Assembly (NCBI RefSeq): GCF_027579695.1
Contig: NC_083571.1
Span: 37,061,943 to 37,125,942, forward strand
Source: Neoarius graeffei
Taxonomy: Eukaryota; Chordata; Actinopteri; Siluriformes; Ariidae
Reading direction: 5' to 3'
DNA length: 64,000 nt
Part shown: positions 13,530 through 64,000 of the stretch, piece after piece
Numbering within the stretch: position 1 is the first letter of the stretch
How the letters are laid out: the number at the start of each line of letters is the position of its first letter
Made by a program: the position numbers and the translations under genes
The notes under the pieces: model-generated
Seen by the model: only the letters and a program-made list of their open reading frames with translations
The model's database searches: none
What the model was told of the DNA's origin: nothing

Positions 13530-13626
13530 AGGGGTGGGAGAGAGGTGACGGAGAGAGAGAGAGAGGAGTTTCAGCTTGAGAGGATCGGCGGCTCGTAGTG
13601 AACCGGTGTCTTTTGTGGAGAACCCC

Positions 13627-14805: not shown

Positions 14806-14810
14806 CTTTG

Positions 14811-17800
14811 ATGGTTTTTAATCTCCTGCAATGGAACGCTCGTAGTTTGATTGGAAATGGGCAGGAATTTAAAAGGTTTGTCACTTCTAGTGAAATTAGT
14901 TGTCATGTTATTTGTGTCCAGGAGACCTGGCTGAAGCCATCTTTGGATTTTGTCCTGCCTGGATATGTATCTGTGCGGAAAGATAGGAAGGACAGGGTAG
15001 GTGGTGGGTGTGTAACTTTTATTAAAGTCGGCATTGAATTCAGGGTTGTTCCAATAGAGTCTTCCCTAGAAGTACTAGTGACTGAAATTTGGAGTACTAC
15101 TGGTCGTTTTTCACTGATTAATTTTTACAACCCGTGTTTACGTTTGCGCACAGTTGAGCTGGCTGATATATTAAGTCAGGTGCGCACCCCAGTTATTTGG
15201 ACGGGAGATTTCAACGCGCATAATGTTTTATGGGGAAGCGGCAAGACGGATGGCAATGGGGAGGTAGTGGAAGATGTAATGTTTGATTTTAACTTAGTCT
15301 GTCTTAATGATGGACACCCCACTAGAGTGCAGCTTGGGTCGTCGACCACGTCATGCTTGGATTTGATGCTAGTTTCTGGCGAGTTGGCAGGCAAGAGTGG
15401 ATGGGAAGTGTTTGATTTCAACTTAGGTAGTGACCATTTTCCTACGCTGGGAACTTTTGGACTGCAGCTTCCTGCTGAGATGATTAGGACAGATGGGAGG
15501 CTCAACTTTTTCAAAGCGGACTCAGAAAAGTTCGAAACTGTATGCGATACTCTCCTTCCAAGCATACAAAATGAGTCAATAGACCAGTGGAACTCTGACC
15601 TTACAGGCCTAATTTCAGCAGCAGCAGCCTCTGCTATTCCTAAGAAAGGCATAGGCCTACAGAGGAAAGCGGTCCCCTGGTGGAGCAAAGAATGTGATGA
15701 AGCTATTAAGGAAAGAAATTCTGCCTTTAGACTCCTGAGGAGGTACCCCACCGTTGACAACCTTATACAGTATAAACGCTGCAGGGCTCTGGCTAGGAGA
15801 GTCATTAAATCTGCTAAGAGGGATAGTTGGAGGGAATACTGCTCCTCTCTGTCAGGTGATACCCCTATTTCACAACTGTGGTCTACTGTGAGGAGGATGA
15901 ATGGTATAGGAAAGAAGGTAGATATTCCTGTCCTGGTGGTTGGGGCTTCGACTGCTATGACTCCCGCAGAGAAGGCCAACCTTTTAGTGGAATCATTCAG
16001 GATGGTTCACAGTTTTGATAATGTAGACCAGGAAAGCCGGGACATGATGAACCAGTCTGTGGGTGGGTTTGTGTACTCCCATGAATTAATGTCTGATGAT
16101 TTTAATGTTTTCTTTTCTTTAGATGAGTTAAAGAGAGCCATAGCGGCAGGCAGGAAGACGGCCCCTGGCATGGATAACCTACATTACGAATTACTCAAAC
16201 ATGTTTCTGATGCCCTCCTGGATGAATTACTCAGTCTCATGAATGACATTTGGAGGCAAGGTAGACTACCAAAGTCATGGAAACACGCAGTGGTCATCCC
16301 GGTGTTGAAGCCTGGGAAGGATCCCAGCTCCCCTTCTTCGTACAGGCCTATTGCCCTTACATCGGTTTTATGCAAGGTTATGGAACGAATGGTGACAGAC
16401 AGGTTGGTCCATTTTTTAGAATCTAAGGGGGCATTGGCAGAGTATCAAAGTGGATTTAGAAAGGGGAGGAGTACCATGGACAATGTGATTGCCTTAGACT
16501 ATGAGATCAAAAGAGCATTTGCTAATAAGGAGTCTCTTATCGGTGTCTTTCTGGACATAGAGAAGGCGTACGACATGCTGTGGAGGGAGGGCCTTCTTGT
16601 GAAGCTTTCTAGATATGGTGTAAGTGGTAGGATGTTTGGGTGGATTAGAAATTTCCTGGAGGAGCGAACAATTCAGGTGAGGGTAGGGCAAGTCTTGTCA
16701 GATGTAGTCTCTATTGACAATGGAACTCTGCAGGGGAGCGTGATTAGCCCTGTTTTGTTCAATGTAATGATTAACGATATGTTTTTAGATCTGAACCAAG
16801 GTATTGGGAAGAGTTTGTATGCGGATGATGGGGCTCTCTGGGTCAAGGGTAGAAACATTCCCTTCATTACAAATAAGATGCAGGAAGAGCTGAATACTGT
16901 GGTTAAGTGGGCCAGGAAATGGGGGTTTAAAATATCTGTGGCCAAATCTAAATTTGTAGTTTTCAGCCGTAGCAAGAAAAAGTGGAACATTTCTTTGTCC
17001 CTTTATGACTCTTCTATAGAGAAAGTGGACAGTTTTAAATATTTGGGAGTATGGTTGGATAGTAAATTGACCTGGAACGTTCATGTTTCTAAAGTGATTA
17101 CAAAAACTAGCAAAGTGTTAAATGTTATGAGGTGTTTGTCTGGATTTTCATGGGGGGCTGAAAAGGGCACTTTACTAACTATTTATCAGGCTATGATAAG
17201 ATCTATCTTTGACTATGGGTGCCAGGTATATGGTGCGGCTGCAATTTCTGTCTTAAAGAGGCTAGATGTCATTCAATTTAAGGCCCTTAGAGTCTGTTGT
17301 GGGGCATTTGCCTCCACATCGACCTCTGCTCTTCTGGTTGAAACAGGTGAGAAGCCTTTGATGGTGAGAAGAGTTCAGCTTTCTCTGCACTATTGGAATA
17401 GGCTCAGGGAGAAGTTTGCTATCTGCCCCACAAGCCACATATTCATGGACTGTTATGAATTTGCCTCTGACCAGGTGAGAAGCCATCCATTCCTTAGACA
17501 ATGTATGACATGGGCCAAAGATTATAACTTATTGGATATGGTCCCAGTTAAGAGTTCCTATTGGGGATCAGTACCTATGTGGCTCCTTCCCTCCTTCCAA
17601 ATTGATTTTAATTTGCACAAGGATAAACATGATGAGGAGATTGAATTTTCTAAGGACTCTGTTCAGGAGCATATTCAACATAACTGGAATCTGCATTTGC
17701 AGATTTATACTGATGGATCTAAAGATCCTGAGTCAGGGAGAGTGAGTTGTGCGTTTTATGTTCCACAGCTAGATTTAAAATGCGGGTATAGAATAAGTGA

Positions 17801-18557
17801 TAATATGTCTGTGTTTACAGCAGAGGCTTTGGGTATTTTAAAAGCCCTTCAATGGGTATTGGAGGCACGGCCTAAAAACGTGATTATTTGCTCTGACTCT
17901 TCATCAGTCTTACACTGTATTGAAACATACTCTTCAAATGCTCGCCCTGATCTAATCTCAGACATTCTATTGTTGCTGAATAATCTCCATAAGAGTGGCT
18001 GTGTTGTTTCCTTCCTGTGGGTCCCCGCCCATATGGGTATTAAGGGGAATGAACTAGTCGATCAGTGTGCAAAAGACAGCTTGAAAGAGGACACAATTTC
18101 TGTGTCGGTTAGCCCAGGTCGAACTGAACTAAGGAGTAAACTCATGGAGGAAGTGTTCCAGACATGGCAGCTCCAGTGGGACAGAGATGTGAAAGGGAGA
18201 CACTTATATGCAATTCAGCCTTCTGTAAGCTCCCAGTGTACTTTATCTGGAGTTAGGTCTCAGCAAGTAGTGCTCACACGTCTTAGATTAGGGCATTGTG
18301 CCCTAAACTCCAATCTATATCTGATTAATAAACACAGAGATGGATTGTGCGACAAATGCAGAGTTCCTGAGACAATTTCTCATGTTTTGTTAGAATGTGT
18401 GCAATACAGTGTGCATAGACGTACGTTTTTTAACATCCTCTCCAGCCTTGGTGTTACCACTGTCTCTCTCCCTGTTTTGCTTCAGTTGAAGGATTATAAA
18501 GTTACCTCCATCCTGATTGGGTTTTTAAAAGCCTCTGGGCTTTATTCCAGAATCTAA
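14811..18557 (+). CDS. LINE ORF2 polyprotein: endonuclease, reverse transcriptase, RNase H
   Basis: Uninterrupted frame of about 1248 codons from the ATG at 14811. The APE endonuclease (residues 1-220) has LLQWNARSL, CVQETW, WTGDFNAHN and GSDHFPT. The reverse transcriptase (about 470-770) has PVLKPGKDPSSPSSYRPIAL, SGFRKGRSTMDN, FLDIEKAYD, GTLQGSVISPVLFN and the catalytic YADDGALW. RNase H (about 965-1095) has IYTDGSKDPESG, FTAEALGI, CSDSSSVLHC and WVPAHMGIKGNELVD, giving the D-E-D-D set. A C-terminal zinc motif CDKCRVPETISHVLLEC follows. All catalytic motifs are present, so the element may be active or recently so. Confidence 0.95.
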   Translation: MVFNLLQWNARSLIGNGQEFKRFVTSSEISCHVICVQETWLKPSLDFVLPGYVSVRKDRKDRVGGGCVTFIKVGIEFRVVPIESSLEVLVTEIWSTTGRFSLINFYNPCLRLRTVELADILSQVRTPVIWTGDFNAHNVLWGSGKTDGNGEVVEDVMFDFNLVCLNDGHPTRVQLGSSTTSCLDLMLVSGELAGKSGWEVFDFNLGSDHFPTLGTFGLQLPAEMIRTDGRLNFFKADSEKFETVCDTLLPSIQNESIDQWNSDLTGLISAAAASAIPKKGIGLQRKAVPWWSKECDEAIKERNSAFRLLRRYPTVDNLIQYKRCRALARRVIKSAKRDSWREYCSSLSGDTPISQLWSTVRRMNGIGKKVDIPVLVVGASTAMTPAEKANLLVESFRMVHSFDNVDQESRDMMNQSVGGFVYSHELMSDDFNVFFSLDELKRAIAAGRKTAPGMDNLHYELLKHVSDALLDELLSLMNDIWRQGRLPKSWKHAVVIPVLKPGKDPSSPSSYRPIALTSVLCKVMERMVTDRLVHFLESKGALAEYQSGFRKGRSTMDNVIALDYEIKRAFANKESLIGVFLDIEKAYDMLWREGLLVKLSRYGVSGRMFGWIRNFLEERTIQVRVGQVLSDVVSIDNGTLQGSVISPVLFNVMINDMFLDLNQGIGKSLYADDGALWVKGRNIPFITNKMQEELNTVVKWARKWGFKISVAKSKFVVFSRSKKKWNISLSLYDSSIEKVDSFKYLGVWLDSKLTWNVHVSKVITKTSKVLNVMRCLSGFSWGAEKGTLLTIYQAMIRSIFDYGCQVYGAAAISVLKRLDVIQFKALRVCCGAFASTSTSALLVETGEKPLMVRRVQLSLHYWNRLREKFAICPTSHIFMDCYEFASDQVRSHPFLRQCMTWAKDYNLLDMVPVKSSYWGSVPMWLLPSFQIDFNLHKDKHDEEIEFSKDSVQEHIQHNWNLHLQIYTDGSKDPESGRVSCAFYVPQLDLKCGYRISDNMSVFTAEALGILKALQWVLEARPKNVIICSDSSSVLHCIETYSSNARPDLISDILLLLNNLHKSGCVVSFLWVPAHMGIKGNELVDQCAKDSLKEDTISVSVSPGRTELRSKLMEEVFQTWQLQWDRDVKGRHLYAIQPSVSSQCTLSGVRSQQVVLTRLRLGHCALNSNLYLINKHRDGLCDKCRVPETISHVLLECVQYSVHRRTFFNILSSLGVTTVSLPVLLQLKDYKVTSILIGFLKASGLYSRI

Positions 18558-27311: not shown

Positions 27312-27381
27312 AAAAATGAATTAATAGAAATGATGATAGTGATTTCTATTAATTCTAAATAGTGATGTTGATTTTGAAATC

Positions 27382-27745
27382 GGGCGGCACGGTGGTGTCG
27401 TGGTTAGCACGGTCGCCTCACAGCAAGAAGGTCCTGGGTTCAAGCCCAGCAGCCGACGAGGGCCCTTCTGTGTGGAGTTTGCATGTTCTCCCTGTGTCTG
27501 CGTGGGTTTCGTCCGGGTACGCCGGTTTCCCCCACAGTCCAAAGGCATGCAGGTTAGGCTAATTGGTGGCTCTAAATTGACCGTAGGTGTGAGTGTGAAT
27601 GGTTATCTGTGTCTCTGTGTCAGCCCTGCGATGACCTGGTGACTTGTCCAGGGTGTACCCCACCTCTCGCCCATGGTCAGTGGGGATAGGCTCCAGCTTG
27701 CCTGCAACCCTGTAGGACAGGATAAGCGGCTACAGATAATGGATG
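27382..27745 (+). mobile_element. tRNA-headed SINE, full length (copy 6)
   Basis: More diverged copy (GTGTCGTGGTTAGCACGG head). It ends GATAAGCGGCTACAGATAATG. Perfect 12 bp target duplication GATTTTGAAATC (27370-27381 and 27746-27757). Confidence 0.95.
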
Positions 27746-27757
27746 GATTTTGAAATC

Positions 27758-28109
27758 ACTGCGAAATCCTTCGGGATCTGACAAGTTGACTTGAATCCAG
27801 TGTTTTCATGAATCATGTATCTTTTGTTTTCAAAACATTTTGCTATAAATCCCTAAAGCACACTGTAGGTTATAGTAATAAAAAGAATAATATACATGTG
27901 AGTTTGGAGAAATTTATCTTCTCATGATAAAATTGAAACACATCAAAGTACATCATCTGTTGCATGTTTGTTTTCATTTGAATGGAAGCTCTGTTATTAA
28001 GTAGGACCTTATTTTATATTAGACTTATCCAACTGTTCAGGCTAACATTAACTTAACCCTCATTTTGATATTGATGAGGTTTCATTTCACATTTCAGCTC
28101 TTCTTTCTT
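27758..28109. other. No recognisable feature
   Basis: AT-rich spacer between two SINEs. Confidence 0.4.
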
Positions 28110-28475
28110 CTCATCTCATCATCTCTAGCCGCTTTATCCTGTTCTACAGGGTCGCAGGCAAGCTGGAGCCTATTCCAGCTGGCTACGGGCGAAAGGTGGG
28201 GTACACCCTGGACAAGTCACCAGATCATCACAGGGCTGACACATAGACACAGACAACCATTCATATTCACATCTACAGTCATTTTAGAGTCACCAGTTAA
28301 CCTAACCTGCATGTCTTTGGACTGTGGGGGAAACCGGAGCACCCGGAGGAAACCCATGCGGACACAGGGAGAACATGCAAACTCTGCACAGAAAGGCCCT
28401 CGCCGGCCACGGGGCTCGAACCCGGACCTTCTTGCTGTGAGGCGACAGCGCTAACCACTACACCACCGTACCGCC
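28110..28475 (-). mobile_element. tRNA-headed SINE (copy 7)
   Basis: Minus-strand copy from CTCATCTCATCATCTCTAGC to CCACCGTACCGCC. The tRNA-like head is complete. No clear target duplication found. Confidence 0.92.
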
Positions 28476-28650
28476 CACTGTAAATATAAAATATGAAAAT
28501 AAAAACCAGTGACTAACTGCAATTTAAAAAAAATACAAAAATTCCCATGATGCAGTAGTAACTACAATAACTTACAATGAAAAAAAATTAAATAAAGTAT
28601 TTTACTGTGTGACATATAGTGCAGTACTGTAGAAATTACTGAAATGTCTA

Positions 28651-28958
28651 TGTAGTATCTGACCAGGTGGGTGGAGCACAGAAGCACGGCAGGCCAGAAC
28701 TGAGTTCTCAAAACTCTTTTTATTCTAAGCTTTTCAGCTTTTCCCAATCTCCCAGCCACACACGCACACACACAAGTCTTCTGGTTAGGGAGAGAGCTCC
28801 CTTTCTCTGCTCTCTCTCTCCTTTTAAAAGGCACAGTCACTGGGGAAGACACACAAACACAGGTTAATTCCCATCAGGTGCAATGACTCCACCACTTACC
28901 TTCCCTGACTCTGCCCTCCATTCGCAGACCGACGCTTGGCCACGCCCCCGCTACCACA
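28651..28958 (-). repeat. 3' LTR of the Gmr1-like element
   Basis: 308 bp beginning TGTAGTATCTGACC on the plus strand and ending CTACCACA. It matches 38544-38849 with few differences. The last RNase H/linker codons and a purine-rich GGGGGTATG stretch (minus strand) lie just inside at 28959-28975. Confidence 0.92.
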
Positions 28959-29057
28959 TACCCCCACTGCCCGACTCAGGCCGGGGAGTCATCTGACGGG
29001 AGAGGAAGTCCTCCATGACCATCTGTGCCCCCAGCCTGTGGACCACCTCGAACTTAA

Positions 29058-29575
29058 AGGGATAGTTCAGGATTTTTGACATGAATCTGTATGGCATCCC
29101 CATCAATAGTGTCGTGCAAACACACTGACTTACCCCCGACAGCATCCTGTGAGTCCAGTTCTTGTCCAGTTTTGGTCCAGACAAAAGTAGTCCGGCAAGT
29201 TTGTTGGGGTCACGAAAGTAAAACGTTTTTCGTCTCAAAACAGTATGTGTTCAAAAGAGTGATATATTTGCATCACAAAACCGTTGCCAAATAAAAAGTC
29301 AGACCTCGAAATCGCTTGGCACTATTTTCTCTCCCTTCTTATCACTGCGTGCTGCCGCCAGGTGACAGCCACGGCTGTTTCATTCATTGTTTACTGCTAG
29401 CAAAGTTAGCGACAACATGTCTGACTACGACAGCGACGTTGAAAACATTGACTTCATCTCACAGCCAAAGGGATATCTTTATGAACCCAAATATACAGAT
29501 GAAGAAATTCGCCAGATGGAGTTAGAACGGGCAGAGAGAGAAAGGGTGGACAGAGAAGTGGAAGAAGGTGAAGCT
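29058..29575. repeat. Long terminal inverted repeat, left arm
   Basis: Matches 32241-32758 in inverted orientation at high identity over 518 bp. It runs from the transposon tip through the promoter region and the first ~53 codons of the ballast gene. Confidence 0.9.
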
Positions 29576-30741
29576 GGAGCCGCAGCTGGAGCCGCAAGAC
29601 ACCGGGTGACCGACAAATGGTGGTGTACTTGTTCCAAATGTGAAGTAATGCAGACAGAGGTGGAGTGCTACTGCTGCCACGAATGGGATCTCATCATGCC
29701 ACAGATGCAAGACCTTTCAGTTGACGAGGAGGCCAGCGTGCCAGCTGTTGTCTGCATCACAAACCACACTGACTTCCCTGCACTCCTGAATGTTGGTGTC
29801 TTGCAGACGTTTTTCCACATTCCTAAAATTAACTGGAAGAAGCGTCCCAGGCCAGCTGGACCCGATGGTCAGTTGTCTTCAGAGTAAGTGTTGACTCCTT
29901 TTTTACATGTTGTAGCCTACAGGTGTTTTGTTAGTTGAATGTTTATAACCTTATAAACTGTACACGTGATCAAGCAATGACTTATTCTGGCATACTGTAT
30001 GCTTTAGTTAGTATAGTCCAGGTCATACACGACTACAACAAATGGGTGTACACATCAGACATTGAAGGAATATGAGTAATAATGATAATCTTTTACATAA
30101 CATTTTTAATGGTGATGCATGTGTTTTTATTGTGTATTCCCAAGTTATTTTTGTTCTTAGAACTTCATATTTGTATCAGAGCTTTATAAGACCTGAGCCT
30201 CAACATGTCTGTATCCTACTGTGCTCAGGAATAAATGTCTTGGCCTAAATGGCAGCCCCCAGCAATTGGCATGATCTCCTGTCCTCACAGGATCAAGCTA
30301 TCAGACTCCCCGTCTCCTCCTGCCCCCAGCATTTAGCACCTTCTTTTGTCTGCACAATATAGCCTTCTGTCCCAAATTACCTAATGCAAATTATTTTAGG
30401 GTGGGCCCAAAGGTTACGCCCCTATGTCCCAGCAGTGTACTTATATATATGTATATAAAATGCCACCAGCAACCAAATTCTGCCATAGCCAGATATGTTG
30501 ATGCATACATTCCTGGCAAAAAGTTGCTTATTTATGTTATGTTGTTTTCTATTTCAGACAGTACAGGCTGATTGCCTATCGCATTGTATTAGAATGGGCC
30601 CTGAAAGGAGAGAAGCATGGTCCCGGCGACAGGAGAGTTCTTCCTTCCTGTGTGGTGGAGCTAATAAGAAGAACATATCCATCACCAAATGGACAATATG
30701 CAGGGTTCAAAGAGTCAGTGGATGCACTGCAATTGTTTTAG
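29417..30741 (+). CDS. Stand-alone P2X7 C-terminal (ballast) domain protein, 216 aa, two exons
   Basis: Exons 29417-29883 and 30558-30741, with a GTAAGTG donor and a TTTCAG acceptor. The join keeps the frame and gives 216 residues. Residues 1-55 are acidic (MSDYDSDVENIDF, GYLYEPKYTDEEI). The domain then shows WWCTCSKCEVMQTEVECYCC, CITNHTDFPALLNVGVLQTF, YRLIAYRIVLEW and LPSCVVELIRRTYP with GQYAGFK. These match in order the Cys-rich, zinc- and nucleotide-binding cytoplasmic ballast of vertebrate P2X7 receptors, but there is no channel domain. AATAAA follows at about 30861. The role in the transposon is unknown; a regulatory or second mobility protein is possible. Confidence 0.82.
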
Positions 30742-30913
30742 ATCTTAAAAATTGTAAAGTTTTACTGTACATTTTCTACATTGTTACATTTACCCTTTCT
30801 ATGGAAAATTATTTGAAACAACATCGAACATACAAAATAGAAACAGATTTCTGTCCTGTTCAATAAAACTATGTTCACAAAGACATCAGATGTTATGGTT
30901 ATTACTATTACGT

Positions 30914-31275
30914 TTACACATAGTTATACAAAAAGCAACATGGCCTGAAAAATGCTTGGTAAAGGTAAGCGACCACAAACAGGGCTTTTTCAGTCTCAGA
31001 CACCAACATCTTTATTGTTTTTTTGGAAAACGTGACATGTTCTGTAACCAAATTATCCTTGTTTGGCTTTGGAGTGGGAGCAATGTTGGCTGGTATTGTG
31101 ACTGGAGGTTGGATGTGGAACGCTGGATCTCCAAGTCTGACATTCTTGTCAAGTCGCCGCTGAATGACCTGTTCCACCAATTCTTTGCAGAAATCCTGAG
31201 TTGTTGGCTCGTACAGCTTCCTTACAATCCACTGGTTAGATTGTTTGGAGTGAATAACATTGTACTTTTCTTTTC
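30914..31275 (-). pseudogene. Kolobok-like transposase, last exon
   Basis: Begins after a CCCAG acceptor (31277/31276). It encodes GKEKYNVIHSKQSNQWIVRK, YEPTTQDFCKELVEQVIQRR and a basic Pro-rich tail, ending at a stop at 30914. Its start phase fits the donor of the exon at 31809-31955. This is the C-terminal tail of a THAP-type transposase. The stop codon is convergent with and close to the end of the ballast gene. Confidence 0.6.
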
Positions 31276-31704
31276 CTGGGAATGAGGAGAGGGACGGGAC
31301 ACAAGAATGATGATGATGGTTCATGTTCATGTTCATTACTTTGGTATGAAATTGAATCACTGTGGTTTGTGTGGCCTGTGAATTGAGGAATGACTACATA
31401 AATAAAGCAGTAACTCTAAAATACAAAAGCAAAATACTAAGATGAAAGTCATAAATCTGAATACGACAAAATTCTCAGGAAAAACAATTATATATTTATA
31501 CTACATATACTATAGTATACTACATATACCATATATATATATATATACTACACAATTATATATTTATACTATACATTTACTGTTGGTTTTAGCCCTTTCA
31601 AAGTCCAGTGGTTTGACAGAGGGATATTATGATTTTTGTCTGGTAACTCCTAGTTTGAAAAGTGCTGATTTATCCAGTGGCATGACAAAAGGTGTAATGT
31701 ATAC

Positions 31705-31710
<6 letters not shown>

Positions 31711-31783
<73 letters not shown>
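31711..31783. repeat. (TA)n microsatellite
   Basis: About 36 TA units in the transposase intron. It generates spurious YIYIYI frames on both strands. Confidence 0.97.
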
Positions 31784-31785
<2 letters not shown>

Positions 31786-31808
31786 GTGTGTGTGTCTTTC
31801 ATACTTAC

Positions 31809-31955
31809 CAGACTGAGTACGGTCATGCTGACGGCCAACATTGAGGTTGTGGTCAATAACACTGAGTTGGAGCCTTGCCTGCATTGTGACATATGTGAAG
31901 TGGCGCCTCTTCTCTGTGTACTTCAGCATAGAGCTGTGGAACACTTCAAGGTCCC
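31809..31955 (-). pseudogene. Kolobok-like transposase, penultimate exon
   Basis: Acceptor TTTTAG and donor CTG|GTAAGT. Encodes DLEVFHSSMLKYTEKRRHFT, then YVTMQARLQLSVIDHNLNVG. The LEVFHSxxLKYxxKRxHFxYxxMxAR...LDHN pattern is one I associate with the C-terminal half of THAP/Kolobok transposases. A short upstream exon piece at 32219-32240 (encoding LFKHTG up to a GTAAGT donor) is in phase with it. Confidence 0.6.
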
Positions 31956-32240
31956 CTAAAAGAAAAAAAGAAGATTGTATTTACACATTTTCAACTTTAT
32001 ACATATGCAAACAGTCTGAAATTATTGCTATTGCTATGATCACTATTTTTTTATGTTTTGTTGGGCAAAGTAAAGTTTTTCTTGTACATTTGCGAAATTG
32101 CTTTTGTTTTCCCAAAGGACAGGTTAAGCATTGCATTATTCATGCTTCTCTAAGAGGTGTTCATATTTGTTTAGGGACAAATGTGATCAACCTACGGCTC
32201 AGAAGTTTATCCAAACTTACCTGTATGCTTGAACAAAGTC

Positions 32241-32758
32241 AGCTTCACCTTCTTCCACTTCTCTGTCCACCCTTTCTCTCTCTGCCCGTTCTAACTCCAT
32301 CTGGCGAATTTCTTCATCTGTATATTCGGGTTCATAAAGATATCCCTTTGGCTGCGAGATGAAGTCATTGTTTTCAACGTCGCTGTCATAGTCAGACATG
32401 TTGTCGCTAACTTTGCTAGCAGTAAACAATGAATGAAACAGCCGTGGCTGTCACCTGGCGGCAGCGCGCAGTGATAAGAAGGGAGAGAAAATAGTGCCAA
32501 GCGATTGCGAGGTCTGACTTTTTATTTGGCAACGGTTTTGTGATGCAAATATATCACTCTTTTGAACACATACTGTTTTGAGAAGAAAAACGTTTTACTT
32601 TCGTGACCCCAACAAACTTGCCGGACTACTTTTGTCTGGACCAAAACTAGACAAGAACTGAACTCACAGGATGCTGTCGGGGTTAAGTCAGTGTATTTGC
32701 ACGACACTGTTGACAGGGATGCCATACAGATTCATGTCAAAAATCCCGAACTATTGCT
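32241..32758. repeat. Long terminal inverted repeat, right arm
   Basis: Inverted copy of the left 518 bp, carrying a second start of the ballast gene (MSDYDSDVENNDFIS at 32400 downward). It ends abruptly after VEEGEA and passes directly into transposase sequence. Confidence 0.9.
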
Positions 32759-32762
32759 TTAA

Positions 32763-33144
32763 ACGGCTGGAGTGCCAAATATCAACGGGTGATCTGCGCG
32801 TTGGCATCCTTCATGCGGTGGAGCCACTGCAGGGGCGTGTGGTCCAAACAGAGGGTGAAAGGGCACCCCAGCAGATAGTAGCGGAGGGCAAGGACCGCCT
32901 ACTTGATGGCGAGGCACTCCTTTTCGATTGTGTTGTACCTGCCCTCATGCACCGACAGCTTCTGGCTGATGTACAGCACTGGAAGGTCCTCCCCCTCCAC
33001 CTCCTGGGACAGAACAGCCCCCAGCCCTCTGTCTGATGCATCTGTCTGCAAAATAAAGGGGAAAGAAAAGTCAGGGGAATGTAACAGTGGCCCCCCACAC
33101 AGTGCAGCCTTTACCTCAGAGAAAGCCTGCTGGCATTGCTCCAT
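32763..33144 (-). pseudogene. Gypsy RNase H, part before the Kolobok-like insertion
   Basis: CQQAFSEVKAALCGGPLLHS, FILQTDASDRGLGAVLSQEV (catalytic Asp), LPVLYISQKLSVHEGRYNTI and EKECLAIK (catalytic Glu). It continues to 32763, where the TTAA-flanked element begins. The remaining codons (FKFEVVHRLGAQMVMEDFLS) lie at 28959-29053. Confidence 0.85.
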
Positions 33145-33147
33145 CCA

Positions 33148-33624
33148 CTAGACTGGATCTGGTGCTCCCTTTTTAGTGAGATCGGTCAGCGGGCTGGTGA
33201 CGTCCGAATAATTAGGTATAAACCTATGATAGTAGCCAGCCAGCCCCAGGAACTGTCTCACCCCCTTTTTGGTCTTGGGCCTCGGGCAGGCCGGAATCGC
33301 TGCTGTCTTATTAATTTGGGGATGCACCTGCCCATTGCCCAAGTGGAAACCCAGATACCATACTTCTACCTGCCCAATTGCACACTTCTTTGGGTTGGCT
33401 GTGTGACCCGCTCGCCTCAGCGACCTAAGGATGGCCCTTAGGTGTTCCAAGTGCCGCAGCCAGTCATTACTGTAAATAATAATGTCGTCCAAGTAGGCGG
33501 CTGTGTAGGTGGCGTGGGGCCAGAGGACCCTATCCATAAGCCGCTGGAACATAGCAGGCGCCCCAAACAGCCCAAAAGGAAGTGTGATGAACTGGTATAA
33601 GCCAAACGATGTGGAAAAGGCCAT
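33148..33624 (-). pseudogene. Gypsy reverse transcriptase, catalytic part
   Basis: Same frame as the preceding segment after one stop. Contains FSTSFGLYQFITLPFGLFGA, AAYLDDIIIYSNDW (catalytic YLDD), KKCAIGQVEVWYLGFHLGNG and RQFLGLAGYYHRFIPNYSDV. A second nonsense codon follows PDPV at the boundary to RNase H. Confidence 0.9.
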
Positions 33625-33630
33625 TTTCTC

Positions 33631-34938
33631 TCAGGATAGCAGAGTCAAGGGGATCTGCCAATATCCCTTTGTCAAATCCAGTGTTGAATAAAAACAAGCC
33701 GTGCCTAGTTGATCGAGCAACTCGTCAATACGAGGCATTGGGTACGCGTCAAATTTAGACACTGCGTTGACTTTTCTATAGTCCACACAGAACCGGACCG
33801 ACCCGTCGGTCTTGGGAGCCAAGACCACCGGGCTGCTCCTGTCGCTGTGGGACTCCTCGACGATGCCCATTTCAAGCATGGCCTCGAGTTCTTCCTGAAC
33901 CACCTTTTTTTTGTGTTTGGGCAGTCTGTAAGGGTGGCTGTGCACTACTATCCCCGGGGGTGTCTCAATGTGGTGTTCTATGAGGTGGGTGCGGCCGGGC
34001 AGTGGCGAGAAGACGTCAGAAAATTCTGTTTGCAACTGGGCGACCTCTGTGAGCTGGTTCGGGGAGAGGTGGTCTCCACAGGGGACCGGTGTGGTGGGCG
34101 ATGTCAATTTCCTTTTTTGAACCTCCAGGGCCAGCTCCGCCTTCTCCGGAACCACCGACACCAACGCCACGGGGACCTCCTCGTTCCAAAGTTTTAGGAG
34201 ATTGAGGTGGTAAATCTGTAACTCCCCACCCCTGTCCGTTCGCCTCACCTCATAATTGATGTCCCTGACTCGTTGTGTGACCTCAAAGGGTCCTTGCCAC
34301 CTGGCGATCAATTTGGAGCTCGACGTGGGCAACAACACAAGTACTTTATCTCCCGGTGTGAATTCCCTAAGGCGCGTGCCCCTGTCGTACAGACGGACTT
34401 GACATTCTTGGGCCTGCCGCAAATTTTCCAGGGTTAGGTGCATGAGGGTGTGGAGTTTGGAGCGCAGGTCAATAAAGTATTGAATTTCGTTTTTACTGGT
34501 TGAAGGTCTCTCCTCCCAATTTTCCCGTAGCACATCCAGAATGCCATGCGGCTTACGCCCATATAATAATTCGAACGGGGAGAACCCCGTGGAGGCTTGC
34601 GGGACCTCTCGCACTGCGTATAACAGGGGCTCAAGCCATTTATCCCAGTTGCGTGCATCTTCACTTACAAATTTTCTAATTATGTTTTTGAGGGTGCGAT
34701 TGAACCGTTTGACTAAGCCATCCATTTGTGGGTGATAAACACTGGTGCGGATAGGCTGAATTCCCAGTAACCCATACAGTTTGTGCAGTGTGTGTGACAT
34801 AAACATAGTGCCTTGATCAGTCAGAATCTCCTTGGGGATTCCAACCCGAGAGATGATGTAGAAGAGTGCTTCTGCAATACTACGTGCTGAGATATTGCGA
34901 AGCGGCACTGCTTCTGGATATCGCGTTGCATAGTCCAC
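33631..34938 (-). pseudogene. Gypsy integrase core and start of reverse transcriptase
   Basis: MDYATRYPEAVPLRN, EILTDQGTMFMSHTLHKL and SVYHPQMDGLVKRFNRTLKN give the integrase D,D-35-E core. An integrase C-terminal segment follows (LREFTPGDKVLVLLPTSSSK, ARWQGPFEVTQRV). The reverse transcriptase then begins in the same frame: SHPYRLPKHKKKVVQEELEA, MGIVEESHSDRSSPVVLAPK, FCVDYRKVNAVSKFDAYPMP, FYSTLDLTKGYWQIPL. A nonsense codon ends it. The continuous frame proves integrase and RT are joined in this order. Confidence 0.9.
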
Positions 34939-35024
34939 CAGAACTAAAATAAAGCAATATCCTCATGTTGACCGACCTAATGGCCCGACGAGATCCATCC
35001 CAATTCTTTCGAACGGGGTCTCAA

Positions 35025-35717
35025 TTAATGGCAGAGGGTGCAAAGGCGCTTTTTGGAATTGACTAACTGGCATTTGCGGCACGCCGTACACCACCTATGG
35101 GCATCGCCGTGAATCCCTGGGCAAGAGAACCAGGCCATTATTCGGGCTAGTGTCTTATCCTGCCCCAAGTGTCCAGCCATGGGATTAAAGTGACCCACCT
35201 GGAATATAAATTCCCAGCGGCTGTTTGGGATTAAAAGCTGTGTTATTTGTTCCTTAGTCTGAGTGTCCTGCGTCACTTGGTATAATCTATCTTTAATAAT
35301 GGAAAAATAGGGGAAGGAGAGGGTGGCGTTTGGCTGGAGAGTTTGACCATCGATTACTCTCACTTGGTCAAAAGCATGCCGCAGAGTCTCATCTCGCGAC
35401 TGCTCTAACGGGAAATCCGTGAGGGAATCCCCGAGAGAGGGAGGAGGAGCCTGCTGCTCCTCACTCTGACGCGGTGATGACATAGACGGCTCTGTGACAG
35501 CTGCTCCCACCAATGCCACTCCAGGACCTCCCCCCGCTGAACTATGGCAGACCCCACTCTTCACTAAATGCGTCATTAATTCCCGAAATCCTGGCCAATC
35601 AGTCCCCAAAATTATCGAGTGGGTAAGGCAAGGATTAATCGCCGCCTTTACTCTAAATTTTTCCCCTCGAAATAGAATGTGGACTGACACTAAAGGTGAA
35701 CATCCCCGTGCACACAC
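35025..35717 (-). pseudogene. Gypsy protease end and integrase zinc-binding domain
   Basis: HSIILGTDWPGFRELM ends the protease. A Ser-rich linker leads to YQVTQDTQTKEQITQLLIPN and then the HHCC domain: HFNPMAGHLGQDKTLARI followed by WCTACRKCQLVNSKK. A frameshift just after NSKK separates it from the catalytic core. It precedes the reverse transcriptase, the reverse of the usual Gypsy order. Confidence 0.85.
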
Positions 35718-35936
35718 AACACCTTCACCAACTGTGCTCTTCCCAATGCCTCGTCTTGCACCAGGCTTTGGTGGATTGAGGTCTGATTACAGCCGGAGTC
35801 CACCAAAGCCTGATACGTATCCCCTTGGATACTCACCGGTATGCGATACGCTCCAGCCCGATTGAGGGCAGTCCCTGGCGCATTGGGGATCCAGACCACC
35901 GCGCCCACCTCCATCGCCAAGCACTGATGCTGGAGG
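35690..35936 (-). pseudogene. Gypsy protease region
   Basis: Encodes VGAVVWIPNAPG, YRIPVSIQGDTYQALVDSGC and NQTSIHQSLVQ. The Asp-Ser-Gly triad is the retropepsin active site. It lies directly downstream of the gag zinc knuckle on the other side of the hAT insertion. A frame change separates it from the downstream ILGTDWPGF stretch. Confidence 0.75.
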
Positions 35937-36191
35937 CATACCTGTTAACTTTGAGGTTTGAAAAAAAGGGATATTTCCCAGATTTTTAACTCAAAATAAG
36001 GGAAAATTTCGGAAAGTCGAACTTTCCGAAAATTTCGGAAAGTCAGTAATCGAACTGACTTTTCTTCACAAAATTAAATTCGTCCTGCCATTTGGGCAAG
36101 TAGCGGCAATACACCTTTTTTGGTTTTGCCTCGCTCCTTTCTTTATTCATGTCTCTAGTCTCGCCGTCTACTGAAACTCACTCCCTGAGGA

Positions 36192-37203
36192 CAGTGCTTG
36201 AAGTGGAAAAAAAGAAGTGCAGGAACCCTGATTTTCTGACAATGCCATCCCGGTCATTCAAATAAGTTCAAATGAAGTTCAAATTTTTTAATTGAAAACT
36301 TCACAGTTTTTGTATTGCCTTCACACATTTTGCAAAACTTGGCTCATAAGGACAATGCGCTACTCTTTTCATCTGTTGTTGTGCTACAGTATTTGTTGTT
36401 TGAACAGATGTTTTCACAATGACTCTGAAATATTATTTTTGAACGAAGTGTCTTAGTTTGTAGACAGCTGGAGTAAAAACAAATCAGAACTAAGAACCAC
36501 AACCATATTGTCAAGTTGTGGATGATTTTCCCCAGTTTTGTGCCCCAACTTCAAAAGAGCTTTGGTCACACAAGGAACACTCAGTTTTCCCCCTTTTTTT
36601 TTTTTTAATTGAAGTTCAAAGGTGATGAAGGGGTTGATTAGGGCTTGATTAGGTTGATAACCTTAAGAACAACAGAAAAACATTGCATCATTTTAAGTTT
36701 AAACTAATAAAAACAAGTCATCACAACATTAATTTAAGTTTCAAAAATAAAAAAATGAGTAATTAGTGCACGTATTACACTAAAAGAAAAGCAAAAGAAG
36801 GTTTAACACCTTTAAGTTTACTAATCACATACATAAACACCTTTAAGTTTAACTAAGTTCACTAATCACCAAACCGCTCTCACGGTGCGCTCACTGGATG
36901 CGACCCAGCGCACGGAAAGGACGCAGCCAATAACAAGAAGGCGCTGCTCAACGCGCTGCGCACAGCTCGCGCTGATTTTTTGGTGAAGCGTGATAAAGGC
37001 TGTACAGCTTGTCGAAGATCTTAAAGTTGTTCATGCCATTGATCTGCTTTAAAACATCCCCAACTGCTAATTCAAGCCTGTGGTTGAGGCAGTGCCAGAC
37101 AAACAAATGGGGAAACTTCGCACAAAACTGCGCTGCCACTCCGGTGAAAATAAAGAAGTGCAGGAACGCAGTTCCGGTGCGTTCCGGCCCACTTCAAGCC
37201 CTG
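36192..37203. mobile_element. hAT-type element (inner), nested
   Basis: Ends CAGTGCTTGAAGTGG and (reverse complement) CAGGGCTTGAAGTGG. Perfect 8 bp target duplication CCTGAGGA (36184-36191 and 37204-37211). Carries a short transposase remnant on the minus strand. Confidence 0.93.
36948..37139 (-). pseudogene. hAT transposase fragment (KIAA1586-like)
   Basis: Encodes FPHLFVWHCLNHRLELAVGD, then FKIFDKLYSLYHASPKNQRE. The WHCLNHRLELAVGD motif is found in hAT-derived transposases of the KIAA1586/ZBED-like group. Only about 60 residues remain. Confidence 0.7.
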
Positions 37204-37562
37204 CCTGAGGAAAGAATTACGACCATCTTTTAGTTTTGTGAGAAGTTCCGAGCAGTGACCTTGGTCAGACTAGCGCTATGGTTCTGACAGTCTTCTTCAC
37301 AGACATGCAATTAAAATCAATGTGTAATTACTAGACTGCCACCTGCTGTACTGGAGAGGGCGGGGACGTGAATTCATGGCCCGACTTCCTGCTGTAAACT
37401 CCTGTCAGAGGCGCGTCATGAATTCTGGACCTACCGACTTTTTTATATTGTGAAAATACCGGGATATTTTCGGGAAAAAAAAAAACGGGAAGACAGCGGG
37501 AAATAAGTCAAAATAAGGGATTTCCCGGGAAAAACGGGAGGGTTGACAGGTATGGCTGGAGG

Positions 37563-38500
37563 TGCCCTGGTTCCCCGCAGTGCCAGCATACTGGCCCAGG
37601 CTCTTTCCCTGCACCGGTGTTCCAGAGATCACTCACCTGAGGGGGGGAAGACACAGACAAGGAAGTAGGAAATGGTAGGACACCGCGGGTGTGGTGGGCC
37701 GGCTGGGGTGGAGCCGGCCCCTGCCTCTGCGGTGGGGGAATGGGGAGAGGGCAAGGAGCAGAGGGAGAAAGAGAAGAGACGGGAGAAGGGGAGACACGCT
37801 GTCCTGCTGTCGGAACGGCTGCCATATGGTCCTCCGCCAGCTCGATGGCCTGATCCAGCGACGCCGGATGATGGCACTGGACCCTCTCTGCTGTTCCTTC
37901 CGGAAGTCGGGCGATGAATTGTTCCAGCACCACCAGATCAATGATTCCCTCGACGTCGCGGTTGTCGGCCCTCAGCCACCGCCGGCAGGCGTCCCGGAGT
38001 TGCTGGTCAAACGCGAACAGCCGGCCGACCTCCTCCAGGTGTAGCGCGTGGAAGCGCTGCCGTTGCTGTTCCAGGGTGCGACCAACACATTGGAGGACGG
38101 CCCTGCGGAGGTCCGCATAGACCAGCTGGCTGTCGGCGGGGACCTGTAGCGCGGCCAGCTGTGCCTCGCCTGTTAGCAGGGGGAGGAGGCGAGCTGTGTG
38201 CTGTTCCACCAGCCAACCCCACGCCTCTGCTGCCTGCTCAAAAAGAGAGTGGAAGGCTTCGGGGTCATCATGCGGACCCATCTTCATTAGGGTGAGGTGG
38301 GGAGGGTCCGCAGCAGTGCTGATTGGGGCCCCTGCCGACACGAGCAGGTGCCGGAACGCCTGGCGATCTTCCTGTTGCGCCAGCACCAGGGCTTCGAACC
38401 GTTGTTCCTGCTCCTTCCGGAGGGCGATCACCGCCTGGTGCTGGCTCTGTTGGGCCGTGGCGAGGGCATGGACCAGGTCCTTGAAGGGGGAGGAATCCAT
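37563..38500 (-). pseudogene. Gypsy gag with SCAN-like capsid, split at the zinc knuckle
   Basis: Starts MDSSPFKDLVHALA at 38500. Residues 1-60 are Gln/Arg-rich helix. The capsid region (about 70-215) has the pattern of the SCAN domain: DDPEAFHSLFEQAAEAWGW, LLTGEAQLAAL, LEQFIARLPEGTAERVQ, DQAIELAEDHM. A Pro/Ser-rich linker follows, then CWHCGEPGHLQ. The nested hAT insertion falls inside this CX2CX4HX4C knuckle, so the last Cys is on the other side of the insertion. SCAN domains of vertebrate zinc-finger proteins are thought to derive from such Gmr1-like capsids. Confidence 0.85.
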
Positions 38501-38524
38501 GTGGCCGTTCCCTTCTGCACTCCG

Positions 38525-38542
38525 TCCCGGGTTTCGGCACCA
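38525..38542 (-). promoter_or_regulatory. Primer-binding site of the Gypsy element
   Basis: Minus strand TGGTGCCGAAACCCGGGA, starting two bases inside the 5' LTR. TGG pairs with a tRNA 3' CCA. The matching tRNA species is not assigned. Confidence 0.7.
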
Positions 38543-38543
38543 C

Positions 38544-38849
38544 TACAGTATCTGACCAGGTGGGTGGAGCACAGAAGCACGGCAGGCCAGAACTGAGTTC
38601 TCAAAACTCTTTTTATTCTAAGCTTTTCAACTTTTCCCAATCTCCCAGCCACACATGCACACACACAAGTCTTCTGGTTGGGGAGAGAGCTCCCTTTCTC
38701 TGCTCTCTCTCTCCTTTTAAAGGGCGCGGTCACTGGGGAAGACACACAAACACAGGTTAATTCCCATCAGGTGCAATGACTCCACCACTTACCTTCCCTG
38801 ACTCTGCCCTCCATTCACAGACCGATGCTTGGCCACGCCCAGTCTAACA
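38544..38849 (-). repeat. 5' LTR of the Gmr1-like element
   Basis: 306 bp matching the left LTR. The terminal TG of the left copy reads TA here, and the right edge is CTAACA. The bases next to the two LTRs (GTCTA and TATAA) do not give an obvious target duplication. Confidence 0.92.
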
Positions 38850-39568
38850 TATAAAAAGAGAGAAAGAAGTGTTCCTGTTTCTAGAGATGGAGTTCAGGGT
38901 CTGTGTGTGAATCATCTCGGAGAGAGAGAGAGAAGTTTATTGGCCATTCGGGGGGGAAAAAGACGGACTAAAGATGCACGTTTTTGTGAACAACAGCACC
39001 GAGCACTGCGATTGGGTGAGTCTGAGTTCTGGAGATGTGGAGCTCTGACTGTTTGGTGTTTGGTGACGCTTGGCCACGCCCAGTCTAACATAGAAAAAGA
39101 GAGAAAGAAGTATTCCTGTTCCCGTTTCTAGAGGTGGAGTTCAGGGTCTGTGTGTGAACCATCTCGGAGAGATGGAGAGAGAGAGAGAGAGAGAAGGAGG
39201 GAGGGAGGAGGAGGAGGAGAGAGAGAGAGAGAGGGAGGGAGAGAGAGAGAGAGAGGGAGGGAGGGAGAGAGAGAGAGAGAGAGGGAGGGAGAGAGAGAGA
39301 GAGGGAGGGAGGGAGAGAGAGAGAGAGAGAGGGAGGGGGAGAGAGAGAGAGGGAGGGAGGGGGAGAGAGAGAGAGAGAGGGAGGGAGGGGGAGAGAGAGA
39401 GAGAGAGGGAGGGAGAGAGAAAGACGGAGAGAGAGAAGTTTATTGGCCATTCAGGGGGAAAAAAGACGGACTGAAGATGCACGTTTTTGTGAACGACAGC
39501 ACCGAGCACTGCGATTGGGTGAGTCTGAGTTCTGGAGATGTGGAGCTCTGACTGTTTGGTGTTTGGTG
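38827..39568. repeat. Tandem duplication spanning the outer edge of the Gypsy LTR
   Basis: 38827-39065 and 39068-39568 share the same order: GCTTGGCCACGCCCAGTCTA (LTR edge), AGAGAGAAAGAAGT, GAAGTTTATTGGCCATTC, GGACTGTTTGGTG-type end. The second unit is longer because of a (GA)n/(GGGA)n expansion. The unit contains 23 bp of LTR, so the duplication happened after the Gypsy insertion. Confidence 0.85.
39174..39435. repeat. (GA)n/(GGGA)n microsatellite
   Basis: About 260 bp of GAGAGA interspersed with GGGAGG on the plus strand. It makes long spurious RERERE and SLSLPPSL frames. Confidence 0.97.
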
Positions 39569-40574: not shown

Positions 40575-40939
40575 CTCATCTCATTACAGTATTTCTAGCC
40601 GCTTTATCCTGTTCTACAGGGTCGCAGGCAAGCTGGAGCCTATCCCAGCTGACTACGGGCAAAAGGCGGGGTACACCCTGGACAAGTCGCCAGGTCATCA
40701 CAGGGCTGACACATAGACACAGACAACCATTCACACCTACGGTCAATTTAGAGCCACCAGTTAACCTAACCTGCATGTCTTTGGACTGTGGGGGAAACCG
40801 GAGCACCCGGAGGAAACCCACGCGGACACGGGGAGAACATGCAAACTCTGCATAGAAAGGCCCTCGCCGGCCACGGGGCTCGAACCCGGACCTTCTTGCT
40901 GTGAGGCGACAGTGCTAACCACTACACCACCGTGCCGCC
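40575..40939 (-). mobile_element. tRNA-headed SINE, full length (copy 8)
   Basis: Minus-strand copy with perfect 13 bp target duplication AAAAAGAAGTAAT (40562-40574 and 40940-40952). Confidence 0.96.
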
Positions 40940-41439
40940 AAAAAGAAGTAATGATGCTGAAAATGTAAATCACCACGTTTCTCAGCTCAGAATGAAACAT
41001 TAAAGTCCGAGGTTTTGTTAAATCCTGTCTCACCATCATGTCACTCCTTCATCATGGGATTAAACACAAGAGTTTAAATTCATGTGTTGAACTTTCTGAG
41101 CTGAATCCTGGTGTAGGACGGAGCTGGTTGTAAAGTTTCACTTCTGTTTCTGCCTCTCATCCTCTTTTCATCTACAAACGTTCCAGGTTTTTGTGTTAAA
41201 TTCTGTAACACTGGATTTTTCTGTTACTAAATAAAGCAATGTGAGAAAATGTGGCAGTAGTTTATAATTAGAAAAAATTCTCAAAAACATTTTATAGCTG
41301 TATGTATTGAGGTGAGGAAAAAAGACAAAAGACTGATGATGACAGAATTTAATATGTATCCGGAACCGAGCTTTCGGCGAAATCTGAATTTTGGTTTCAT
41401 AAATAAAAAGGTTTGTTTCACTCAGTTCGATTCCAGTCC

Positions 41440-41809
41440 CGGGGCGGCACGGTGGTGTAGTGGTTAGCACTGCTGCCTCACAGCAAGAAGGTTCTGGGTT
41501 CGAGCCCCGTGGCCGACGAGGGCCTTTCTGTGCGGAGTTTGCATGTTCTCCCCGTGTCCGCGTGGGTTTCCTCCAGGTGCTCCGGTTTCCCCCACAGTCC
41601 AAAGACATGCAGGTTAGGTTAACTGGTGACTCTAAATTGACCGTAGGTGTGAATTTAAGTGTGAATGGTTGTCTGTGTCTATGTGTCAGCCCTGTGATGA
41701 CCTGGTGACTTGTCCAGGGTGTACCCCGCCTTTCGCCCGTAGTCAGCTGGGATAGGCTCCAGCTTGCCTGCGACCCTGTAGAACAGGATAAAGCGGCTAG
41801 AGAGGATGA
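41440..41809 (+). mobile_element. tRNA-headed SINE, full length (copy 9)
   Basis: Plus-strand copy with target duplication GATTCCAGT (41428-41436 and 41810-41818). Confidence 0.94.
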
Positions 41810-42135
41810 GATTCCAGTGATCTCAGTGATCTCCAGTCCAGGTTTCACATGTTGGACTAAAAGAACAAACACTGAAGGAACATTTTGAGTATGTGGTGTT
41901 AGTGAGTCTGAGAGATTTTGTTTTATAATTGTATTAGTTTTACACTCCTGAGTATGAGATCACTCACCTTCTCTCCAACACTCTTCTTGCAGCTAAGTGA
42001 AAATGTTTCATCAGACATTGTGTGAGTATCCACTTCAACATACATATATGTGTATATATAGTGTGTACATAGTGTATATACAGTGGCATGCAAAAGTTTG
42101 GGCACCCTTACTGAAAATGTCTGTTACTGTGAATA

Positions 42136-43740
42136 CAACCCCGATTCCAAAAAAGTTGGGACAAAGTACAAATTGTAAATAAAAACGGAATGCAATGATG
42201 TGGAAGTTTCAAAATTCCATATTTTATTCAGAATAGAACATAGATGACATATCAAATGTTTAAACTGAGAAAATGTATCATTTAAAGAGAAAAATTAGGT
42301 GATTTTAAATTTCATGAGAACAACACATCTCAAAAAAGTTGGGACAAGGCCATGTTTACCACTGTGAGACATCCCCTTTTCTCTTTACAACAGTCTGTAA
42401 ACGTCTGGGGACTGAGGAGACAAGTTGCTCAAGTTTAGGGATAGGAATGTTAACCCATTCTTGTCTAATGTAGGATTCTAGTTGCTCAACTGTCTTAGGT
42501 CTTTTTTGTCGTATCTTCCATTTTATGATGCGCCAAATGTTTTCTATGGGTGAAAGATCTGGACTGCAGGCTGGCCAGTTCAGTACCCGGACCCTTCTTC
42601 TACACAGCCATGATGCTGTAATTGATGCAGTATGTGGTTTGGCATTGTCATGTTGGAAAATGCAAGGTCTTCCCTGAAAGAGATGTCATCTGGATGGGAG
42701 CATATGTTGCTCTAGAACCTGGATATACCTTTCAGCATTGATGGTGTCTTTCCAGATGTGTAAGCTGCCCATGCCACATGCACTAATGCAACCCCATACC
42801 ATCAGAGATGCAGGCTTCTGAACTGAGCGCTGATAACAACTTGGGTCGTCCTTCTCCTCTTTAGTCCGAATGACACAGCGTCCCTGATTTCCATAAAGAA
42901 CTTCAAATTTTGATTCATCTGACCACAGAACAGTTTTCCACTTTGTCACAGTCCATTTTAAATGAGCCTTGGCCCAGAGAAGACGTCTGCACTTCTGGAT
43001 CATGTTTAGATACGGCTTCTTCTTTGAACTATAGAGTTTTAGCTGGAAACAGCGGATGGCACGGTGAATTGTGTTCACAGATAATGTTCTCTGGAAATAT
43101 TCCTGAGCCCATTTTGTGATTTCCAATACAGAAGCATGCCTGTATGTGATGCAGTGCCGTCTAAGGGCCCGAAGATCACGGGCACCCAGTATGGTTTTCC
43201 GGCCTTGACCCTTACGCACAGAGATTCTTCCAGATTCTCTGAATCTTTTGATGATATTATGCACTGTAGATGATGATATGTTCAAACTCTTTGCAATTTT
43301 ACACTGTCGAACTCCTTTCTGATATTGCTCCACTATTTGTCGGTGCAGAATTAGGGGGATTGGTGATCCTCTTCCCATCTTTACTTCTGAGAGCCGCTGC
43401 CACTCCAAGATGCTCTTTTTATACCCAGTCATGTTAATGACCTATTGCCATTTGACCTAATGAGTTGCAATTTGGTCCTCCAGCTGTTCCTTTTTTGTAC
43501 CTTTAACTTTTCCAGCCTCTTATTGCCCCTGTCCCAACTTTTTTGAGATGTGTTGCTGTTATGAAATTTCAAATGAGCCAATATTTGGCATGAAATTTCA
43601 AAATGACTCACTTTCAACATTTGATATGTTGTCTATGTTCTATTGTGAATACAATATCAGTTTTTGAGATTTGTAAATTTCTGCATTCCGTTTTTATTTA
43701 CAATTTGTACTTTGTCCCAACTTTTTTGGAATCGGGGTTG
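42136..43740 (-). mobile_element. Tc1-like transposon (inner), 1605 bp
   Basis: Begins CAACCCCGATTCCAAAAAAG and ends with the inverted counterpart. TA duplications at 42134-42135 and 43741-43742. Nearly complete, with a transposase gene on the minus strand. It is younger than the element it sits in. Confidence 0.96.
42356..43378 (-). pseudogene. Tc1-like transposase (340 codons) with a single nonsense codon
   Basis: Starts [20 protein letters not shown] at 43378. Paired helix-turn-helix DNA-binding region ([38 protein letters not shown]), then the catalytic domain with [11 protein letters not shown] (Asp 1), FQHDNAKPHT (Asp 2) and SPDLSPIENIW (Glu). One TGA after the codons for MLPSR (about 42682) interrupts an otherwise open frame that runs to TAA at 42356. 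An Arg CGA to TGA change would explain it. Very recently inactivated. Confidence 0.92.

Positions 43741-62614: not shown

Positions 62615-64000
<1,386 letters not shown>

Follow-up and report, generated by a model that had tools for sequence, protein, structure and literature searches.

Why a gene for little more than the cytoplasmic ballast domain of P2X7 receptors should lie within a TTAA-flanked insertion, and to what kind of mobile element it belongs, are the questions raised by a locus of Neoarius graeffei (contig NC_083571.1). The window analyzed here is the whole stretch of 64,000 nucleotides, and all positions refer to it. The insertion is very probably a non-autonomous, internally deleted Kolobok DNA transposon of the Kol0 lineage, which has kept an intact KolX accessory gene. 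Kol0-lineage Kolobok elements encode two proteins, a transposase and KolX (Kojima & Bao 2022, PMC9587614). KolX is described there as having the ballast fold, with similarity to residues 476-595 of human P2X7, and its seven conserved Cys residues surround two zinc ions (PMC9587614).

The element is 3,701 bp long (29058-32758) and carries a copy of TTAA on either side, at 29054-29057 and, adjoining its right end, at 32759-32762. Its termini read 5'-AGGGATAG... on the left and ...ATTGCT-3' on the right. When the flanks were joined at a single TTAA, the frame of an LTR retrotransposon (...YLALQPFKFEVVHRLGAQ...) was restored and ran continuously across the site (...YLALQPFKFEVVHRLGAQMVMEDFLSR...), which indicates a genuine TTAA insertion, as the earlier note had proposed. 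The target-site duplication of Kolobok elements was found at both ends and in this frame-restoring empty site, and the terminal AG...CT follows the 5'-RR/YY-3' rule (PMC9587614); the RR...YY ends of Kolobok are described there as unlike the termini of piggyBac. The joined flanks (356 nt) contain a 41-residue open piece and three in-frame stops, two before and one after, so that the host retrotransposon has probably decayed itself.

The ballast gene lies on the plus strand in two predicted exons. Exon 1 (29417-29883) opens with the start codon at 29417 and encodes an acidic N-terminus and the Cys motifs CxCxxC, CC and CITN; exon 2, which includes the stop codon (30558-30741), encodes AYR, LPSC and GQYAGFK and matches Pfam P2RX7_C. 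The intervening phase-2 intron (29884-30557; GTAAGT...TTTCAG), predicted from the sequence, interrupts the ballast domain, and its removal leaves an open frame of 216 aa. A candidate poly(A) signal, AATAAA (30862-30867, plus strand), is found about 120 nt past the stop.

The claim of a two-exon ballast gene held, with a likeness to the P2X7 domain well above the level of chance. Against P2RX7_C (PF20478) the 216-aa protein scored 49.9 bits (E 4.8e-13, cut-off 23.5) and exon 2 alone 37.2 bits; neither the exon 1 half alone nor two shuffled versions of the domain reached this family at E 1. P2RX7_C was the only Pfam family matched by the protein at E 1, the P2X channel domain being absent. All four PDB sequences that matched at E up to 1 were P2X7 (best E 0.0016), and the PDB match within exon 1 (residues 67-87) scored below zero. 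With a profile built from three P2X7 ballasts, the protein scored 24.6 bits, versus at most 8.2 over 2000 shuffles of residues 56-216, and the match was limited to residues 156-208. Judging from these sequence comparisons, the domain signal appears to come mainly from exon 2. A single-sequence AlphaFold2 model was poor (mean pLDDT 44, with residues 54-216 below 50), its better part being a helix at residues 28-56.

A gapped global alignment paired 117 residues with the rat ballast, 37 of them identical, and set seven of the nine rat Cys within residues 471-595 (477, 479, 482, 498, 499, 506 and 572) opposite a Cys; no Cys was found opposite 548 and 573. Owing to long alignment gaps in the exon 1 half, the first six of these pairings owe more to pattern than to score. 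These seven are taken to represent the Zn-coordinating set of P2RX7_C, in which seven Cys surround two zinc ions (PMC9587614). At the guanosine-site positions listed in PMC7016195, the protein shares R546 and R578 and differs at H547, R574 and K583; with two of the five kept, GTP or GDP binding is doubtful. R574 and K583 are also missing from fish and frog P2X7 and from nanor, and invertebrates keep only R546 and R578 (Rump et al., PMC7016195).

Convergent with this gene, three minus-strand pieces splice in frame to give KVKLTLFKHTGDLEVFHSS...: a truncated exon end (32251-32221; KVKLTLFKHTG), entered from the right repeat arm with no Met before its splice donor, an exon that is spliced in frame (31955-31809; DLEVFHSSMLKY...TQSG) and a last exon (31275-30914; KEKYNVIHS...) with the stop at 30916-30914. 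A (TA)38 microsatellite (31707-31783) lies inside a predicted intron. The open stretch of 192 aa reaches back into the right arm, with no Met until 33 residues in, past the first predicted splice; the gene is reduced to its 3' exons, and the frame begins without a start codon. In our reading this is what remains, on the 3' side, of a convergent transposase gene that has lost its 5' part, and the transposase was presumably of the Kolobok type. Neither the 192-aa product nor a 142-aa piece of it matched a Pfam family at E 1, and Pfam revealed THAP in neither of the two proteins of the element. A DDE core was not found in this copy, in which the 3' exons alone remain of the minus-strand gene. The earlier note had recognized here the final exons of a THAP/Kolobok-type transposase: the in-frame splicing of three pieces bears out the exons, whereas THAP was not recovered, and the Kolobok label rests on the ends and on KolX, as Pfam offers no family for the minus-strand exons.

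How the copy came to have one open and one truncated gene is suggested by its terminal inverted arms. These measure 519 nt from the element ends (29058-29576, plus; 32240-32758, minus), or 523 nt if TTAA is counted, and are identical at 502 of 519 positions, leaving 17 mismatches. They stop at GAAGGTGAAGCTG, beyond which the left and right sides diverge immediately. The left arm starts with 5'-AG (RR), and its inner 160 nt, which include the KolX start codon, are coding sequence of that gene; in the right arm the first 53 KolX codons are present once more, in a frame that, if spliced, would run for 62 residues and then stop. Of the mismatches, 10 lie within the outer 120 nt and 7 within the inner 399 nt (Fisher p 0.0014, to be read in the light of a cut chosen post hoc among four), and 0.5% of 2000 permutations gave as good a skew (one-sided, with the best cut taken at intervals of 10 between 30 and 290). 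With the mismatches concentrated in the outer 120 nt, the inner part of the arms seems to stem from a more recent copying event than the ends. The copy is read as a deletion derivative that arose through duplication of the left end at the right end. By abortive gap repair or template switching, the left terminus and the initial 53 codons of KolX may have been duplicated at the opposite end, and the same step would have deleted the 5' part of the transposase gene. Such a copy would have been mobilised by transposase supplied in trans, or would have lost its transposase after moving.

An open KolX beside a ruined minus-strand gene, with the KolX upstream stretch and N-terminus present at both ends, might also be taken for a product of the element's reduction that represses full-length elements in trans, or for a step towards domestication. 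Truncated P-element products provide a precedent for trans repression of this kind. We nevertheless regard this as unlikely, for an intact frame may well survive by chance. Beyond the last outer mismatch the inner arms differ at 7 of 409 positions; at half this divergence about 5.6 substitutions are expected in the KolX coding sequence, and under neutral decay since the inner arms separated the gene would be free of stops and indels with a probability of 32-42%, if disabling indels are assumed to occur at 0.10-0.15 per substitution. At such odds, an open KolX frame does not point to selection. Selection on KolX was considered as an explanation and, on the same figures, dropped as unprovable. 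Slightly less likely again is the broader proposal that copies with KolX as their sole working gene form a family that carries the KolX upstream region and N-terminus at both ends, spreads without a transposase of its own, acts in trans on the element or on the host and represents a living intermediate towards host ballast genes such as nanor and P2X7.

The preferred reading, a deleted Kol0 element, accounts for the gene as the element's own. The TTAA copies, the RR...YY ends and the KolX gene fit Kol0, and the second gene of that lineage, a KolX with the ballast fold, is represented in the sequence by the P2RX7_C match and the Cys alignment, as judged by published descriptions of KolX. That a host nanor-like ballast gene was instead captured by chance, as passenger cargo, is improbable: ballast-only nanor genes of fish are indeed annotated as host genes (Rump et al., PMC7016195), but the KolX start codon lies within the repeat arm, and KolX is the second protein of the published Kol0 lineage, known from vertebrates, annelids, cnidarians and sponges (PMC9587614). 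Least probable of all is an element of the piggyBac kind with a KolX-like protein, for in spite of the TTAA duplication and of such families reported by Kojima & Bao, the ends (5'-AG...CT-3') have the Kolobok RR...YY form contrasted by those authors with piggyBac, and the protein retains the Cys set, which by their account is largely absent from those piggyBac proteins (PMC9587614). The minus-strand remnant had no Pfam match to a piggyBac transposase, though a 3' remnant might be missed by a core-domain model.

Searches of viral contigs and genome contigs yielded no relatives of KolX, and no relative of the 142-aa remnant piece was found among viral contigs; a search of plasmid sequences hit the TA repeat alone, in a single record. 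Within the window, KolX was found again only as its first 53 codons in the right arm; of the remnant no second copy was detected apart from a weak match over 16 residues (E 0.32).

The host of the element is a minus-strand LTR retrotransposon, pieces of which match integrase and reverse transcriptase families, and its repeats (near 28654-28960 and 38547-38853) are identical at 294 of 307 aligned positions. This retrotransposon (28654-38853) contains a SCAN-domain piece (37511-38542, minus strand), and its integrase pieces lie upstream of the reverse transcriptase, an order as in Gmr1-like gypsy elements. Copies of an interspersed repeat, direct and inverted, are shared between 27368-28508 and 40576-41812 and flank the retrotransposon, and a GA-rich tandem array (39167-39436) is located about 300 bp past the right LTR. 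The window is rich in transposable elements: ten frames were scanned from among its 38 open stretches of at least 150 aa, of which eight matched reverse transcriptase, integrase or transposase families, one matched SCAN and one matched nothing. At 13549-18554, a 418-aa open stretch is followed by one of 1251 aa with matches to endonuclease, reverse transcriptase and RNase H, as in a LINE-like element whose second frame is long and open. Transposase frames of the Tc1/mariner type occur at 42689-43441 and 63353-63898, and the latter also matches a Sleeping Beauty HTH. Neither Rfam, at its gathering scores, nor ARAGORN, run with bacterial settings, detected RNA genes in the window.

As for the role of KolX in its transposon, the most likely, to which we give slightly less than even confidence, would be that of a zinc-folded nuclear partner of the transposase, which would help to assemble or regulate the transposition complex. 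The acidic N-terminus, together with the basic stretch KKRPRP, would be in keeping with such a nuclear partner. On the side of the host, it has been proposed by others that capture of a KolX-like domain gave P2X7 its ballast; Kojima & Bao (2022) concluded that a P2X4-like gene fused with KolX to give P2X7, and considered nanor a likely domesticated KolX (PMC9587614). Our results favor the core of the earlier interpretation, a complete ballast-domain gene within a Kolobok-like element from which the P2X7 tail could have come, an idea already published in 2022 (PMC9587614); as a whole, that interpretation is partly supported, because the presumed transposase exons match no known family.

Both the pairing of transposon and ballast and the source of the P2X7 tail being in the literature, the element is a well-preserved further example and not a discovery, and our finding is an independent rediscovery of the link between Kol0 and KolX published by Kojima & Bao (2022, PMC9587614). 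The copy makes that link between a transposon gene and the P2X7 tail visible directly in the nucleotides of a single clean insertion, complete with its TTAA copies, its ends and an open ballast gene. It adds a clean empty site, an open KolX beside a ruined partner, arms that reach into KolX and a predicted mid-domain intron. In the open-access literature searched, KolX and Kolobok occur together in PMC9587614 only, and Kolobok and P2X7 also in PMC9319628, each word once. The main text of PMC9587614 does not discuss an intron within the domain, "exon" occurring only as part of exonuclease (in all 10 places). Ballast-only genes were found across animals by Rump et al. (2020, PMC7016195), whose main text contains no words beginning with transpos or Kolobok. 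That paper places "ancestral synteny" markers next to ballast genes in lineages from sponge to molluscs, arthropods and echinoderms and gives the Ixodes ballast protein a "TAHP" N-terminus (read here as THAP); the markers could be Kolobok transposase genes, and the Ixodes protein a fused gene model.

Among known systems, the element most closely recalls Kol0 with KolX (Kolobok-1_XT, PMC9587614), with which it shares the TTAA target, the RR...YY ends and a ballast gene beside a second gene; it differs in having only the 3' exons of that second gene and 519-nt arms that enter the KolX coding sequence. The piggyBac elements with a KolX-like C-terminal protein share the TTAA target, but have other ends, and most of the seven Cys are said to be missing (PMC9587614). 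Zebrafish nanor and nanor-b (PMC7016195), compared by description only, likewise encode a ballast-only protein with a short N-terminus, but are host genes. Finally, the ballast of P2X7 itself (PF20478; PDB 6u9v) aligns with the KolX-like protein in seven of nine rat Cys, AYR, LPSC and GQY(S/A)GFK, whereas the latter has no channel part and two of the five guanosine-site residues. In addition, KolX has its predicted intron in mid-domain, in contrast to the P2X7 ballast, which is assigned to a single exon, exon 13 (PMC7016195); this difference implies capture from an intronless KolX lineage, loss of the intron, or its later gain.
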